DNA from: Fimbriimonadaceae bacterium
GTDB taxonomy: Bacteria > Armatimonadota > Fimbriimonadia > Fimbriimonadales > Fimbriimonadaceae
DNA: 64,000 bases
Reading direction: 5' to 3'
NCBI GenBank assembly: GCA_019638795.1
Contig: JAHBTB010000013.1
Span: forward strand, 1-64,000
The translations under genes and the position numbers were made by a program. Within the stretch, counting starts at the first letter, position 1. Every line of letters begins with the position of its first letter. A model generated the notes under the pieces. It saw nothing but the letters and a program-made list of their open reading frames with translations. It had not been told where the DNA came from and searched no databases. This document shows, one piece after another, positions 1-56,313 of the stretch.

Positions 1-480
1 CGCCCAGTCGACGTCGTGCTGATAGAACTGCACCGCCTGCTGGTACTCCATCTCCGGGTCGGCAAAGAGGGTGCGGGGCACGTCCTCGCGGGCGGCGACC
101 CGAAGGATCGCCTGGGTGCTGATGCGCTCGTGCACCTGCAGCGCCACCGGGTCGACCACGCACTCCGGTTGCTCGCGCTTGCCGCTCCACTCCAGCCACG
201 GGTCCGCCTGCGCCAGGGCCTGCAACTCCTTGACCTCGTCCTCACTCAGCGACTTCTCGGCCCCCAGCTTCGCCAGGAGTTCGTTCAGCCGGTCGGCCCG
301 ACCCGTGGGGTCGAAGCGGAGGGCAGGCGGCAGGTGTGGGTTGTAGCCGTACTTGACCTTCGACTCGCGAACAAGTTGGCCTTTGCCGGCGATACCGGCG
401 GGGGGGATGTTCTTCCGGGTCGCGCGCTCGTGGCGTAAGTCAGTGACTTCATTGGTAGAGTCAGGTCTCTTCTTCGGCAT
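1..480 (-). CDS. Site-specific DNA-methyltransferase, N-terminal part (cut by window edge)
   Basis: The minus-strand frame opens with ATG at 480 and stays open to base 1, giving 160 residues of the N-terminus. Visible landmarks are LRFDPTGRADRLNELLA, DPWLEWSGKRE, VDPVALQVHERIST and a final AVQFYQHDVDWA. I know this series from the N-terminal region of the large adenine-specific methyltransferases of type III-like restriction systems, where the last motif sits just before the first methyltransferase segment. The catalytic motifs (DPPY and the SAM-binding motif) would lie beyond the window, so activity cannot be judged. The family usually sits beside a helicase or endonuclease gene, expected further left. 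It is divergent from the small gene at 535 with 54 bp between them and lies in a tRNA-Leu island. Family recognition is from memory of these motifs. Confidence 0.78.
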   Translation of the reverse strand, partial: MPKKRPDSTNEVTDLRHERATRKNIPPAGIAGKGQLVRESKVKYGYNPHLPPALRFDPTGRADRLNELLAKLGAEKSLSEDEVKELQALAQADPWLEWSGKREQPECVVDPVALQVHERISTQAILRVAAREDVPRTLFADPEMEYQQAVQFYQHDVDWA

Positions 481-534
481 GTTCTTCTCGCCTGGCCCGG
501 CGGTCTCCTCGACGGCTGTTGCCTATTCTCCCTG

Positions 535-777
535 ATGGGGAAGGCAAATCGCGCCGGCGGGACACCAGGCCCTGCCTCGACGTCCGGTGCTCCGCGGGAG
601 AGCGACCCCGGACGTGAGGACCCGGGGGAGTCGGCCTGGCTGTGTCCGGACGAGCTAGCTTTGGCCGACGGCACTCGCCTCGTCTCTGCCTACAAGGACG
701 CTAACGGCACAAAGTTCTGGATCATCACCGAAGCGGATCGCTCGGCGACGACCATCCTCTTGCCAGAGGACTACTAA
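535..777 (+). CDS. Small conserved-looking protein next to the methyltransferase
   Basis: An 80-residue protein divergent from the methyltransferase gene. Residues 1-35 are Gly/Pro/Ser-rich and probably disordered. The C-terminal half (DGTRLVSAYKDANGTKFWI then ITEADRSATTILLPEDY) reads like a compact beta-rich domain. I believe similar short proteins lie beside this methyltransferase class, which would make it an accessory subunit or regulator of the system, but that is inference. No strong ribosome-binding site is visible before the ATG at 535, so translation may begin close to the transcript start. The opposite strand over 285-674 is also open but looks like a shadow. Confidence 0.6.
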   Translation: MGKANRAGGTPGPASTSGAPRESDPGREDPGESAWLCPDELALADGTRLVSAYKDANGTKFWIITEADRSATTILLPEDY

Positions 778-848
778 CCTCAGGCGAGTCGCAATTGCGG
801 CTCGTCACTTTCTTGTTTGCGACATTGATCACCCCACCAATTCAGAAA

Positions 849-1919
849 CTACCTTGAGCTTGCTTTCCTCTCCAGATGACGAATTTCGGACAGGTAATGG
901 AAGAATTGCCCTTGGAGGCAAAGGTCTACCGCCCGGTTCAAATACGGTTGAGGCTCGGCAGAGGTCGCAATGGACAAGGCGGCCCTATTGATCAAATTAC
1001 GAATCCTCTGGTCCGCTCCTAACGACGACTCGCTCTCCTCACACTTCTGTAACGAGCGCTCAGCATCGTCGAACCGAGACCGGTGAATGGACAAGGTCGC
1101 TAGGACTTCGTGCATCAAGGCGTGCTCCTTTGCATCTGCTGAGTGCTGTGAGGCTTGACTGACTTCTGCCTGAGCTTGCTGCAGGTCGTCAGGAATCGGA
1201 GCATTTCGGTGGGCAAAACACTTCAATATGGCGCGATCTCGCGGGATTGAGCAACGGAAATGGCCCTGATCAGCCTGACTGCCTATACTACGCAAGACAT
1301 CTTCTGCCACAGAATATAACCTGATGGCAGACGGATTCGGGCCCCCCTGCTTGAACGGGTACTGAATTCTTGCGGCGAGCCAAAGAACCTCGAGAAACTC
1401 TGTCCGGCCGCACTGCCTGGCCAACTCAAGCCAGCTTGGCAAGAATCGTTTTGCGCGATCAGGCATTCCCATGTCAGCAAGCAAATCCACATACAACTTG
1501 CCCCACCGATGAGCTTGATGAGAGCGACGATCCAAAATGACCGGAAACACTCGTTCACATATCGTCAAAGCCAGAGATCTTTCGCCTAGGCTAACAAGTG
1601 ACACAGCGCGGGATAAGAGGTGGCCGAGCTTTTCTTCGGTCAAACTCGCCAACTCCTCTGCCTCGGGAATCTCCGCGCCCCAGAGCCGCTCTTGAACCCA
1701 CCTTTGATAAAATAGAGGCCAATCCGCCTCGGGCACCTCAGCACACTGCAAGAGGCAAATCAGCTCGTCCGCGGTCTTTGGGAGCTTTCGCGTGCGATAT
1801 TCCTTGACAGTATCTCTCGAAAGCGAGAACCGGGGATACTTACCCATCCGCTCATGAAGCACCTCGACGCTTAGAATCTGGGCGTCGAGATGGCGGGCCA
1901 GCAATTGGCAGAACTGCAC
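849..1919 (-). CDS. HTH-like plus helical-repeat (TPR-like) protein of unknown function
   Basis: A 356-residue protein. The first 85 residues (FCQLLARHLD, LSRDTVKEYRTRKLP, DELICLLQCAEV) look like the XRE-type helix-turn-helix head seen on many regulators and STAND or TPR proteins. The rest is almost all alpha-helix with Ala/Leu/Glu-rich segments spaced like TPR units, for example SLGERSLALTICERVFP and HRSRFDDAERSLQKCEE. No catalytic motif, signal peptide or membrane segment is seen. Codon use is AT-richer than in the core genes to the right, fitting the island. It is monocistronic, with 3.1 kb of ORF-poor DNA upstream. A role in regulating or sensing for the island is plausible but unproven; I do not recognise the specific family. 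Confidence 0.65.
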   Translation of the reverse strand: MQFCQLLARHLDAQILSVEVLHERMGKYPRFSLSRDTVKEYRTRKLPKTADELICLLQCAEVPEADWPLFYQRWVQERLWGAEIPEAEELASLTEEKLGHLLSRAVSLVSLGERSLALTICERVFPVILDRRSHQAHRWGKLYVDLLADMGMPDRAKRFLPSWLELARQCGRTEFLEVLWLAARIQYPFKQGGPNPSAIRLYSVAEDVLRSIGSQADQGHFRCSIPRDRAILKCFAHRNAPIPDDLQQAQAEVSQASQHSADAKEHALMHEVLATLSIHRSRFDDAERSLQKCEESESSLGADQRIRNLINRAALSIATSAEPQPYLNRAVDLCLQGQFFHYLSEIRHLERKASSR

Positions 1920-2888
1920 CGTTACACCTCTCGTGGGAATAAACCCCCCTGGCCATATACTACCACTGCAGATGCGGTATGAACCATGTGTGAGGGTGGA
2001 CTTTGAAAACAGCGATCATGACACCAGATACTTCTGACTGATCGATCTGATCTTACCGAGGTGACGCCTGTTGGGATATGATGTAATACAATAAGCATCA
2101 TTGACTAACCAATGGACAACGCTTGAAATCTCGCCTTCGATCGCTTTTCTTCTCGTTTCGGCAGCCAAGGTCCCCGGGATTGCGCCGGCTGCTGGTTGCG
2201 TGTGGTGGATCATCAACAGCCACTCTTCTTACCAGCATTATTCCGTCTTCATCGACTGATGTGACTGCTGGTGCAGGGGGAATGTGTCTATCACTGTCCT
2301 GGCTGGCCACTATGCAGACACAAAGACTTTGCCAAGGTATTGACCACCAATACACGGGCTCCTGGGAATTTCAAACTGCAAAACATGTGACAAAGAAGAC
2401 TTGAACCAGAGCAACTCCAGTAATCTCAGGGGATCTCCACTGCCTTCTGAGATCCCATATCCAGCCGATGGAATGATAATTGTGTTAAAAGACAGGTGTT
2501 TAAGTTTGTATTTCGCGGGAAAGGCAAACCCTGCAGCTTTATCTCGATGCCAAAACTTTAGCTGCAACAAAAGATGTAAATGACTGTAAAACTCTTGGAT
2601 GTGGTTCGCACCAGAGTCGTCGAACCTGACGATCATGGTACGTCAGATCCACCTTCAAAAGACCGTAAGACTGCAAAGACGGAACATTGAGAATTCAGCT
2701 CCTTAATTACTCATGTGGTAATATTTAATGAATCAGAAAAATTTCGTGCCACTGGCAAATACCTGAAGACGACATACGGGTACTAAACAGTTCATGGTGC
2801 ACCTGCATTTTGCAGACGACGAAGTCACATTTTAAGCGCTGTGGCGCTAACAGAAACAGTTATCAAAGGTCTCGTCTCCGTAAAATTC

Positions 2889-2918
2889 TTGACAAAGTGG
2901 TGTTACTTATGGTAAGAT
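2889..2918 (+). promoter_or_regulatory. Promoter-like element, -35 TTGACA and -10 TAAGAT
   Basis: TTGACA at 2889-2894 and TAAGAT at 2913-2918 are separated by 18 bp, close to a sigma70-type promoter. Directly downstream lies an inverted repeat (2926-2943). The first ATG (2944) opens only a 23-codon frame, so any transcript is either non-coding or encodes a small peptide. Confidence 0.4.
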
Positions 2919-2925
2919 AGTGAAG

Positions 2926-2943
2926 AAGTGAGTGGTCTCACTT
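2926..2943. repeat. 7-bp inverted repeat at the predicted transcript start (operator-like)
   Basis: AAGTGAG (2926-2932) and CTCACTT (2937-2943) are perfect inverted arms around TGGT. The position just after the -10 box at 2913-2918 is where a repressor operator or a 5' RNA hairpin would sit. Confidence 0.4.
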
Positions 2944-4135
2944 ATGACTTACATTTTGCTACAAGGCAAAACCTTTGATTGCCCCCTTACACTGGGTGGA
3001 CATCTGTGTGATTAGGTATTCATTCTGGCAATGTAATGGAAAAAGTATAGTTAACGCCTACTAACATTGGTGAAATTGTCTCTTAAAGCATAAAGATACC
3101 ATTTTTTCTATGATTTCAAAGATACTTATCCTCGGGCCATCGCATCAGCAGTGATCTGGTAATGGGGTGAGTGATGCTGCCCATTGCTTTCGAATGGGCC
3201 GCTTGTTCCTCAACGGCCGCAGTGGATTATATCCTGACGGCAATGACAAAGATGGAGCCCAGCAGAAACCGTCAAGCTGCGTCGTGAGTTGAGCGGCGCG
3301 TTATGCCTTGTACCTTTTTTTGCAGCCCAACATTGTCTAAGGGCGATGATCCGCATGTCCCGCTTGGGATATCGGACACAATCCACAATTTGATGATAGC
3401 GATCACTAATCATGGATATCTACTAAGTGATCCAGATGGTAGGCGCGCAATGGCCACCTGTTGATGCCCCGCGACGCCAACTGACCAGATCAAACATTCG
3501 CTAAGGGAAGCCGAGCAACTGGTACAAATCCATGGTTATACGAATTGGATGTCAAAAACTTTCGTTCGTCAACCCTTACCGTTGTCTATGTTTTTCATTC
3601 TGGTTGTTTTACGATAGAAGCGGCAGTACTATGCGCAACAGTGGTTTAGTGACGAGTCCTGTATCAATTTCCGACTACGCCATTTAGGATCGATAAGACC
3701 ATTAGCTCAAAGTCCAATTTCCTCATACTAAAGCTTGATCCTGCTGACCAAGTGGTAGTGATATACTATGGATCATCATGTCAAATGATATGCTGAGTGT
3801 GCTGATCTGACATGAGCTCGCACCGCGTATTGAAAGCAATGTTTTGATTCACGAGAAATGGTTCCCAGCAGACGCAGACACTAGAATTGGTGGCAGGAAC
3901 TGGCTCCTTTGACACTGAATCATCGGAGTCTCCAAAGGATGAACCTGAGGGACGTTCTGTTAACTGGAAAAGAGAGACAGGTTGGGCTCGAAAAGTTTCC
4001 TGGACTCCTTGATCATTATTTCAGCGAAGTGGTGGTCGTTGCCCAAGTGGGAGCAGGTCTTGGTGTAAATAAGTTGTGATTGCTACCATGGTGCTAGGTC
4101 AAAGGCCTGAGAGGTGGCCCGTCGCAAGAACGGCA

Positions 4136-4162
4136 AGTGGGGATGGTTACGCTAACCCCACT
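4136..4162. repeat. Hairpin-forming inverted repeat
   Basis: AGTGGGG (4136-4142) pairs with CCCCACT (4156-4162). An alternative pairing extends the stem through GGTTA/TAACC with a 4-nt bulge around a CGC loop. There is no T-run after it, so it is not an obvious terminator. It lies in the ORF-poor block, and function is unknown. Confidence 0.35.
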
Positions 4163-5030
4163 GCAAAGTTGTGGACCATGCAGATTCCAGGCTGCTCGAT
4201 GATGGCGGGAGGCTTCATGTTCCTGTAAGAACAGATGGTAAGTAAGGTAACCCTGATGGCAGCCGCGTAACGCGCCACAAATACGTTGATATTAGCCCGT
4301 GCGTGTCAGGAAAGGTCGGGTAACCAACCGAAAGCTTGGGACGGATCATTGGTGCAGAGGCCTCTGGATTTGCACGGTAAGCAGGTAGGGAGAGTACGCC
4401 TTGTGGAAGGAGTATCCTGGCGAGGTGGAAGTCCTTTCAGCAATCCTTTCATCGGCAATCTCAATGACTTTGACGCGACACGTGGAGCCTCCCGCCCTTG
4501 CTCCGAGCTCAAGTGGCAGCCTCTGGTGAAGTCGAATAGTCTGAGACTGCAAGACGGCAACCTAGATGGTGTGGCTCAATGGACGCGCAACGGTACAGGT
4601 GTTGGGCCTCGGTTGACTGTAGCAATACAATATGGGGAGTAGCCGAGGTCGGTTTCCTGATGGGCACGTTCTGGCGATGGTTGTTTCTTCTTTCTGCGAA
4701 ATCTTCATGGAGTTGATGAAATGTATCCTATTTGGGCACATCGAGTGGCGGTGTGCAACTCGGCTATATGGATGAGAGGAAAGGCGTTGTTCACCGTCCG
4801 AGTTTGCTTCTTGACTGAGCCATATTATGGGCGCACAGCGCAGTAGTTTCACAAGGGAGATAACCGGAACCAACCGGTCGGTGGGGATACACATTGGATA
4901 GAAGGGCAGTGGAGCTGGACCGGGGTTGATAGTCATTTTTTCGCTGTTGATAAACAGCGAATAGAGGAAGATTTGTGGTGGTGAAAGAGAAACGAAGCAC
5001 TTTAGTTGCGAAACTATAGGAGGACATGAA

Positions 5031-5689
5031 GTGGTAGTGGTTTGTTGTATCGTGGCGGTGGGGCAAATGTCCGAGTGCCTGTCCATAAGTTTAGTCTTCT
5101 GGAACGAGGTCTAGTAGAGTGGCAAGAGGTTCCGGCAACATCGTTAGGAAGGTTGGTAAGCCCACTATGGTCTAAAAGGATAGCCACGGAGAAAGCAAAG
5201 GCAAAAGATGTAACAAAGGATGAGCTGATGCATTTTAGTTCAAGGATGTACATGACTTTCACCTCTGCGAAGGTTATTAGTGCCTCCGTAATTCATAGGG
5301 AAGGTATGGGTGCGGCTTCGACCACTGCTGCATTTGAAACGTATATTTGGACGGAGCAGCAAGGTAAGGCTCATCAAGTGTCGGTCAGCGAGATATTTTT
5401 GACGAGTGAAAGTAAAGTGCAGGGCCTGAAGGGGGTCCTCTTGCCTTTGTTTAAGGTGGAGTTGGGAAAGGGTAGCTGGGCGAAGCAATCTGTGCCTAGG
5501 GCAGGAGAGTGTGTATCCGAGGCATTAAAGAGTGGACCCGTGGTCGTAAACAAGGGACTCAGGTTTATTGCTATGGAGCCAGATCGTGGACGATGGACAG
5601 TGTCGGTTGATGTGCCATGGTCTCAATTAGGCTCATTTCTTAACCCAAAGGGCCATTTGGCGATCATGCAAAGAGGACCTGGACACTGA
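5031..5689 (+). pseudogene. DUF3298-like protein, probably frameshifted near its start
   Basis: A long frame from a weak TTG at 5042 to 5689 encodes 215 residues. Its second half has a substrate-free beta-sandwich look, ending WTVSVDVPWSQLGSFLNP, which resembles the DUF3298 C-terminus (inference). That frame has no good ribosome site. A perfect AGGAGG (5018-5023) sits 7 bp before a GTG at 5031 in another frame, which reads a hydrophobic VVVCCIVAVG and then stops near 5114. The simplest reading is a secreted protein whose signal-peptide frame and body frame have been separated by an indel between about 5050 and 5110. Alternatively, the TTG-started protein is real and cytoplasmic. It is isolated, with no operon partner. 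Confidence 0.45.
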
Positions 5690-5851
5690 GACCCGGTTCA
5701 TCACCGCTACATAAGTAAACTAGTCCGCAACGTCAATTATTCTTCCCGAGGACTATTGACGAACTTCTAAGCGGCCACCGATAGAGATGGCCCGCCCTTC
5801 TTGTGCTGATTAGTTTAGTCAGGGCTCAAGAACCGGCACTCATTCAGATAC

Positions 5852-6205
5852 TTGCCATCGTGTGTACCGGATGATCGTGACATGCAAAGCCACGAGCACC
5901 TTAGGTTCCCGATTGGCACGAATGGAGAAGGAGCGAGGCAATACCTTGGGTGCTCTGCGAGCATGTTCGAGGAGCTGCGGGCGCGGAAGTTCGTGCGCTC
6001 AATCCGCCGCGATTGGTACAGCTATGAAGACTTGGACGTAGCAATGCGTCTACTACTTACCGAGCGAGATCGTGGTACAGAAGAAAGTCATGGAATCAAA
6101 GCCGCAGGCATATCCAGTCAAGAACCGATCCGGCTTGTGGGCCGCAAAGGGAATCGATCCAGTTACCCATCGACGGAAGAACTACTTCGGCAAATCGGCA
6201 GCTGA
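5852..6205 (+). CDS. Excisionase-like HTH protein
   Basis: A 117-residue protein; an internal ATG at 5882 is an equally good start. The core (GARQYLGCSASMFEELRARK then VRSIRRDWYSYEDLDVAMR) matches the winged HTH_17/excisionase pattern of a helix, a turn, a basic segment and a closing Tyr-x-x-x-Asp-Leu helix. Its last 134 bp overlap the integrase gene in a different frame. Such small DNA-binding proteins next to a tyrosine recombinase usually act as recombination directionality factors. The C-terminal 40 residues, lying in the overlap, are low in structure and may be dispensable. Confidence 0.6.
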   Translation: MPSCVPDDRDMQSHEHLRFPIGTNGEGARQYLGCSASMFEELRARKFVRSIRRDWYSYEDLDVAMRLLLTERDRGTEESHGIKAAGISSQEPIRLVGRKGNRSSYPSTEELLRQIGS

Positions 6206-7184
6206 GGCGTCGGAGAAGGCGTTCAGGTCGCTTGGTCCATCCAAGGACTTCAGTTTCTTCCGCTTTTACTCGTCCGGCTACTTGCCGACTGTCAAGCACC
6301 GCATCCAGAACTGGCAGAACCAGATCGCCTGGTCGATGGACAAGTACGTCCTCCCAGAGTTTGGCCACCGGGACATCCGCGAGCTCAAGAGAGCCGAGTT
6401 CCAGATGTTCTTCAACAAGATCAGCGCGGAGCTCAAGGCGTCAAGCGTTGAGAAGGTGAAGATCGTCACCTCGGGCGTCATGCGCCTCGCTGTCGCCGAC
6501 GAGGTCATCACCGTCAACCCAGTCACATTTGTCCGCATCGCCAGGAAGGATCCGGTAGAGAAGACTGCCCTGACCTTCCAGGAGCTCCATCAGTTGCTCG
6601 ATGCGTCTGGAGCGCTCATCAAGCCATTCGTCATCTTGGCTGGCTGCTTAGGGCTCCGCTTGGGCGAGGCAGTGGGTGTGACCCGTGGAGCGATCAGCCG
6701 AAGCCGGGTGCTTTCGGTTCGTCAGCAAGTCCAGCAGCTCAAGGGTGGTTGTACGATCAGTAACAAGCTCAAGACCGACCACAGCCGTCGCGAGATTCCT
6801 CTTCCTGAGCCTCTCTATAACGCTCTGATGAGTTGCGGTCAGGTCAGCGATGTCTGGGTTTGCTCAGACACCCTTGGAGGCTTTGTGAAGCCCAAGAACA
6901 TCACGAGAGAGCTCAAGGCGGCATGCGTCACGGCTGGAGTCCCCGTCGTGTCTCCGCACGAGCTTCGCCATACGTTTATCAGCCTCATGGACAACGAAGT
7001 CGAAGCCCCTCGCACCGTCGTCATGGCGTTGGCCGGGCATGTCGCCCAATCGACCACGGACGGGTATTCGCACGTGAAAAACGAACAAAAACTCCGGTGG
7101 GTGGAAAAGCTCTGGGATCAGGTTTCTACTGCTTGTAGCCCAGAAACGTGGGCTACAAGGGTCGAAATCTCAGGTTCAAATTGA
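6072..7184 (+). CDS. Tyrosine recombinase / integrase
   Basis: A 370-residue phage-type integrase, read from GTG at 6072 (ATG at 6090 is an alternative). A Lys/Arg-rich arm-binding N-terminus (1-40) is followed by a SAM-like core-binding domain (about 60-155). The catalytic domain carries Arg196 in LGLRLGEAVG, Lys232/234 in NKLKTDHSRR, His296 and Arg299 in SPHELRH, His323 in LAGHVAQ and nucleophile Tyr332 in DGYSHV. All key residues are present, so it is predicted active. It overlaps the excisionase-like gene and ends 16 bp from the 3' end of tRNA-Leu, the expected attachment site. A perfect 11-bp inverted repeat lies in its last codons (7132-7159). Confidence 0.93.
   Translation: MVQKKVMESKPQAYPVKNRSGLWAAKGIDPVTHRRKNYFGKSAAEASEKAFRSLGPSKDFSFFRFYSSGYLPTVKHRIQNWQNQIAWSMDKYVLPEFGHRDIRELKRAEFQMFFNKISAELKASSVEKVKIVTSGVMRLAVADEVITVNPVTFVRIARKDPVEKTALTFQELHQLLDASGALIKPFVILAGCLGLRLGEAVGVTRGAISRSRVLSVRQQVQQLKGGCTISNKLKTDHSRREIPLPEPLYNALMSCGQVSDVWVCSDTLGGFVKPKNITRELKAACVTAGVPVVSPHELRHTFISLMDNEVEAPRTVVMALAGHVAQSTTDGYSHVKNEQKLRWVEKLWDQVSTACSPETWATRVEISGSN
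7132..7159. repeat. Perfect 11-bp inverted repeat in the integrase 3' end
   Basis: CTTGTAGCCCA (7132-7142) and TGGGCTACAAG (7149-7159) pair perfectly around the 6-nt loop GAAACG. It lies inside the last codons of the integrase gene, 41 bp from the tRNA-Leu end. It could be a recombinase or excisionase arm site, or an intrinsic terminator, although no T-run follows. Confidence 0.6.
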
Positions 7185-7199
7185 ACCTACGGAGATTTG

Positions 7200-7286
7200 T
7201 GGTGCCCAGGAAAGGACTCGAACCTTCACTCCCTTGCGAGAACTAGTACCTGAAACTAGCGCGTCTACCAATTCCGCCACCTGGGC
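7200..7286 (-). tRNA. tRNA-Leu(CAG)
   Basis: The minus strand folds as a class II tRNA. The acceptor arm GCCCAGG pairs with CCTGGGC, followed by discriminator A and an encoded CCA (7200-7202). The D-arm (GGCGGAATTGGTAGACGCGC), anticodon stem CTAGT/ACTAG with loop TTCAGGT (anticodon CAG), a variable arm and the T-arm GGTTCGAGTCC are all present. The 3' end faces the integrase gene, and this end is the likely integration site of the island to its left. Confidence 0.97.
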
Positions 7287-53190: not shown

Positions 53191-56082
<2,892 letters not shown>

Positions 56083-56088
56083 ATAAAC

Positions 56089-56151
56089 CTGAAGTTATTC
56101 AATCGGTGTTTTTTACGCTCATTCCACTGACCATGAAGCTATGCAGCTTTC
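56089..56151 (+). other. 3' arm of the 23S processing stem
   Basis: Complement of 53133-53189 in four matched segments. It lies between the 23S 3' end and the 5S gene, so it brackets only 23S, and 5S is released separately. Confidence 0.9.
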
Positions 56152-56189
56152 TAAGTGCTTTTGCTCGCAAGGCAAGCACAATGAAAATT

Positions 56190-56313
56190 CTATTCGCGTG
56201 ACCATAGCGAGAGGAAAACACCCGTTCCCATCCCGAACACGGAAGTAAAGACTCTCAGCGGCGGATGTACTTGGTGGGTGACTTCCCGGGAGATATGCAC
56301 GTTGCGCGGATAG
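56190..56313 (+). rRNA. rrf: 5S ribosomal RNA
   Basis: About 124 nt. The terminal stem CTATTCGCG/CGCGGATAG, the loop GTGACCATAGCGAGAGG, the conserved CACCCGTTCCCATCCCGAAC and CGGAAGTAAAG, and the ending GATGTACTTGGTGGG are present. The gene follows 23S at 107 bp. Confidence 0.96.

Follow-up and report, generated by a model that had tools for sequence, protein, structure and literature searches.

A gene-free, AT-rich block in a degenerate integrative element at a tRNA-Leu gene of a Fimbriimonadaceae bacterium

The element and its relatives

The window, that is, the whole stretch of 64,000 nucleotides analysed (positions 1 to 64,000 of contig JAHBTB010000013.1, assembly GCA_019638795.1), carries an integrative element whose integration site is a tRNA-Leu(cag) gene (7200-7286, minus strand). 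The tRNA gene is abutted by a tyrosine integrase gene (6072-7184, plus strand; PF00589; 71% identity to its counterpart in G016), which is preceded by a xis-like gene (5852-6205, plus strand) assigned from position and conservation only (61% identity to the counterpart in the related element L013, and a profile). Farther toward the contig end lie a divergently oriented gene for an HTH/TPR-type regulator (849-1919, minus strand), which is 22-25% identical to the regulators of the related elements L013 and L014 and has a profile score far above shuffles; the intact copy of a gene for a small conserved protein (535-777, plus strand); and, truncated by the contig end, a gene for a site-specific DNA methyltransferase of which the N-terminal portion is present (1-480, minus strand; tblastn identity 31-37% over 94-99% of the query). 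For neither the regulator nor an open reading frame at 5042-5689 were close relatives found in the genome and viral collections. A second attachment site was not found within 1-7200, genome-wide only other tRNA genes match, and the far end of the element lies off the contig. With the integrase and xis genes retained, the element may still excise.

The family of the small protein (535-777 in the window; loci L061-L079) is present in 27 of 113 host-order genomes, has a strongly conserved end, FWIITEADRSATTILLPEDY, and is often found near the coupling-ATPase module described below; it has no match in Pfam, PHROGs, NCBIfam or PADLOC. Elsewhere in the window, 23S and 5S rRNA genes (53191-56310) have no 16S gene upstream within its limits, so that the rRNA genes may be unlinked.

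The integrase is 65-71% identical to those of four related elements (L013, L014, L053 and L054). In the first two, which come from a genome of the same family, the HTH/TPR regulator is followed, in divergent orientation, by a coupling-type ATPase and a replication-relaxation protein (PF13814, Replic_Relax), and then by cargo, xis-like gene, integrase and tRNA; the ATPase of L013 matches PF10412 and PF02534. L013 also resembles the window at the DNA level, over a segment that starts at the xis-like gene, spans the integrase and reaches into the tRNA. All four have the ATPase and Replic_Relax genes in the position that is occupied in the window by a long gene-free block. The coupling ATPase is present in 36 of the 113 genomes of the order and was not found in this one. 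The window keeps the regulator, xis-like gene and integrase, with the block in the place expected for the transfer genes; the assembled part of the element is without transfer genes, and among the coupling-ATPase/Replic_Relax elements at tRNA-Leu it ranks as a degenerate relative rather than as an intact member.

These four elements, together with L057, make up an integrative element family of the host order in which an HTH/TPR regulator is divergent from the ATPase and Replic_Relax genes. Mrr-like and replication-like genes stand behind the regulator in L013. L054, with a TAG within its coupling ATPase gene (around 5364-5366), looks degenerate too, as do L049/L055 and L050/L056, whose integrase matches contain stop codons.

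The gene-free block and its compositional unit

No gene lies from 1919 to 5042, between the regulator and the open reading frame at 5042-5689 (plus strand). In the first-pass annotation, positions 1920-5030 had been described as an AT-rich block of 3.1 kb that lies inside the island and is free of ORFs, and so long a gene-free stretch had been called rare. This description holds: no frame exceeds chance, GC content is 48% in the block compared with 66% in host DNA, and the block (1920-5041, assigned to neither strand) lies within the integrative element. The gap left by the gene caller is 3155 bases, whereas the largest among nine related loci is 1494 bases; outside the island (7185-53000), the coding fraction of the window is 0.92. 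The scattered open fragments that had also been reported are of a length expected by chance, the longest stop-free run being 159 codons (shuffles: mean 135, maximum 201). Triplet periodicity is absent from 1920-5041, and the frameshift-tolerant coding score of the whole block is near that of shuffles; a minus-strand stretch at 4349-5023 scores 15.3, slightly above the shuffle maximum of 13.0. Reading TGA, TAG or TAA as sense, as in alternative genetic codes, opened no unusual frame in the block.

When 1-7200 was searched by unsupervised segmentation for the segment most deviant in CpG versus TpG/CpA, a single CpG-poor, TpG/CpA-rich unit of 3.8 kb was returned (1901-5690, assigned to neither strand; log-likelihood gain 29.4), the edges of which fall at the start of the regulator gene and the end of the 5042-5689 reading frame. 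Dinucleotide distances are further evidence for this unit. The ratio of CpG to expectation is 0.79 in the block and 0.62 in this reading frame, compared with about 0.95-1.2 elsewhere in the window. One segment with low CpG in both parts indicates a common origin or mutational history, unlike that of the flanks; the signature may have been brought from a donor or made here by deamination. Searches for repeats, and for the end repeats of an insertion, yielded only 8-9-base matches.

The reading frame at the 3' end of the unit (5042-5689, plus strand; 215 aa), recognized by alignment and coding score, is a divergent DUF3298-like ORF. Most of it can be aligned with DUF3298/PdaC proteins encoded in host-family genomes, at identities of 19-30% (the best E, 6e-6, is for a single genome). 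However, it begins with a TTG after stop codons and has no in-frame signal peptide, although its relatives have one, and a Shine-Dalgarno-like AGGAGG with an ATG lies just upstream in another frame. Together, these features make a frame change near the start likely, and the ORF is probably broken there. Directly behind it, at 5691-5759 (plus strand), the peptide TRFITAT*VN*SATSIILPEDY* matches the end of the small-protein family of which the intact copy lies at 535-777, with two stops inside.

RNA, assembly artefact or former genes

Given a gene-free stretch of this length, it was postulated in the first-pass annotation that a large structured RNA might be encoded here, and a promoter-like element, an operator-like repeat and several hairpins were cited. 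The promoter-like site (TTGACA-N18-TAAGAT, 2889-2918) is a good one and exists, as does the palindrome AAGTGAG-TGGT-CTCACTT (2926-2943), but the counts of such features are about those of shuffled sequence: 8 promoter-like sites versus 5.3 +/- 2.0, 3 terminators versus 3.4, palindromic sites about as many as in shuffles, and 5 perfect 7-base hairpin arms (three of which form one hairpin) versus 2.0 +/- 1.7, a number reached in 7 of 60 shuffles. A few local folds are present, the best of which has a z of -4.0 (4845-4994, minus strand); nonetheless, the mean z for folding energy over 84 windows is -0.09, like that of shuffled sequence, in a test that is weak alone, since a 23S control gave a mean z of only -0.65 on such short windows. 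Furthermore, Rfam yielded no match at gathering score and only two chance-level matches at E 10, with nothing at either level for known large-RNA families such as OLE, GOLLD or ROOL. DNA searches of relatives, of 113 host-order genomes, of phages and of plasmids brought up no sequence similar to the block, and 291 genomes of the host phylum gave only chance-like matches of 30-45 bases. The nucleotide comparison thus gave the RNA proposal no homologue, and with no Rfam family, shuffle-like folding and no conserved DNA, a large structured RNA carried by the element appears highly improbable. Extremely improbable is an undescribed functional non-coding element that lacks stable structure, such as a long RNA or DNA control region, and that would have entered as one unit with the DUF3298-like ORF.

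A chimeric assembly, or one of low quality near the end of a draft contig, would be in line with the start of the window at contig base 1 and with the sharp composition changes at 1901 and 5690. However, coding sequence full of errors should still give a coding signal when frameshifts are tolerated, which the block does not; moreover, the junctions coincide with gene ends, and the regulator and integrase side keep the gene order of the relatives. An artefact is therefore decidedly unlikely. It has to be asked, then, which genes the block might once have held. The transfer genes themselves, decayed in place beyond recognition, would fit in position and length. In frameshift-tolerant profile alignments, a method that still detected simulated relics diverged by as much as about 0.6 substitutions per site, Replic_Relax scored 49.9 against the block, near the top of the shuffles (42.1 +/- 4.3, maximum 50.4), but the ATPase scored 41.0, the same as shuffles (41.8 +/- 6.4), and profile alignment found in the block no relic of the coupling ATPase, Replic_Relax, TPR, integrase or xis genes. 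Given scores in the shuffle range and the limit of the method, the transfer genes have been lost, have been replaced, or persist as relics older than that limit. In addition, the compositional unit takes in an unrelated ORF, and decay in place seems quite improbable.

Another candidate arose when 305 proteins of the related loci were compared with the block. The best match, with a score of 67, was to a STAND-type NTPase (L033/L086) around its P-loop, at 3948-4153; none of 960 shuffles reached this score, which gives a per-protein P of about 1e-4 to 4e-4 but an expectation of about 0.1-0.2 after correction for about 610 comparisons. With a first family profile, which had badly aligned rows, 3 of 200 shuffles equalled or exceeded the observed score; a cleaned profile placed the match elsewhere, and neither hmmsearch nor blastp gave anything convincing. 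As an established STAND relic, the match was consequently rejected, since it fails correction and the family profile disagrees, and it is kept as a lead only; that such a gene survives as a relic in the block, at about 3.95-4.65 kb, is possible though unlikely. In the L086 protein itself (L086:3324-6242; 972 residues), encoded beside the coupling ATPase, a STAND-like NTPase region occurs together with pentatricopeptide (PPR) repeats, which is unusual in bacteria.

A degenerate element with probable worn-out cargo

The block probably consists of foreign DNA without function, left over from decayed cargo of a degenerate integrative element at the tRNA-Leu gene. This reading is supported by a stretch that is gene-free by every test and lacks conservation and RNA structure, by transfer genes that are present in relatives and absent here, and by the single compositional unit, the stop-ridden tail at 5691-5759 and an ORF without the signal peptide of its relatives. 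In this model, the element has lost the coupling ATPase and Replic_Relax genes that its relatives possess, and the alien 3.8-kb unit (1901-5690), which would have arrived as cargo, now separates the regulator from the xis-like gene. Its non-coding part would once have coded; one readable DUF3298-like ORF is retained at the 3' end, the remainder no longer coding.

The first-pass annotation had named decay of former genes as the sober alternative to an RNA, and the setting agrees with it: the transfer genes are missing, a stop-ridden tail adjoins, and the ORF is cut from its signal peptide. However, no frameshifted known gene can be demonstrated across the block itself. Frameshifted or stop-ridden homology was seen beside the block, at 5691-5759, and was not found within 1920-5041, and the six-frame searches of Pfam, PHROGs, NCBIfam and PADLOC that might have revealed decayed genes were silent, so that no former gene is recognizable. 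It also counts against this reading that non-coding DNA kept for long is unusual in bacteria, and that the 3'-terminal ORF has stayed open, which means that block and ORF have decayed unlike one another. A literature search found nothing specific. The most likely verdict is ordinary foreign, mostly non-coding remains, worth noting but not surprising. The gap is thus a poor candidate for a new large RNA, the surrounding island is explained, and an integrative element family of the host order is recorded with one member that is without its transfer module.

Compared with the four related elements, this one is alike in integrase, xis-like gene, regulator, tRNA-Leu site and gene order, but where the others have transfer genes, it has an alien unit that is for the most part non-coding. 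Its ORF aligns with host-family members of the DUF3298/PdaC-type secreted proteins (PF11738, PF13739), from which it differs in its low identity, in having no Pfam match of its own and in the missing signal peptide. Pseudogene-rich remnants of genomic islands provide another parallel, with a lost module, a stop-bearing gene tail, a truncated ORF and no conservation, except that here no names can be given to the former genes over most of the block.
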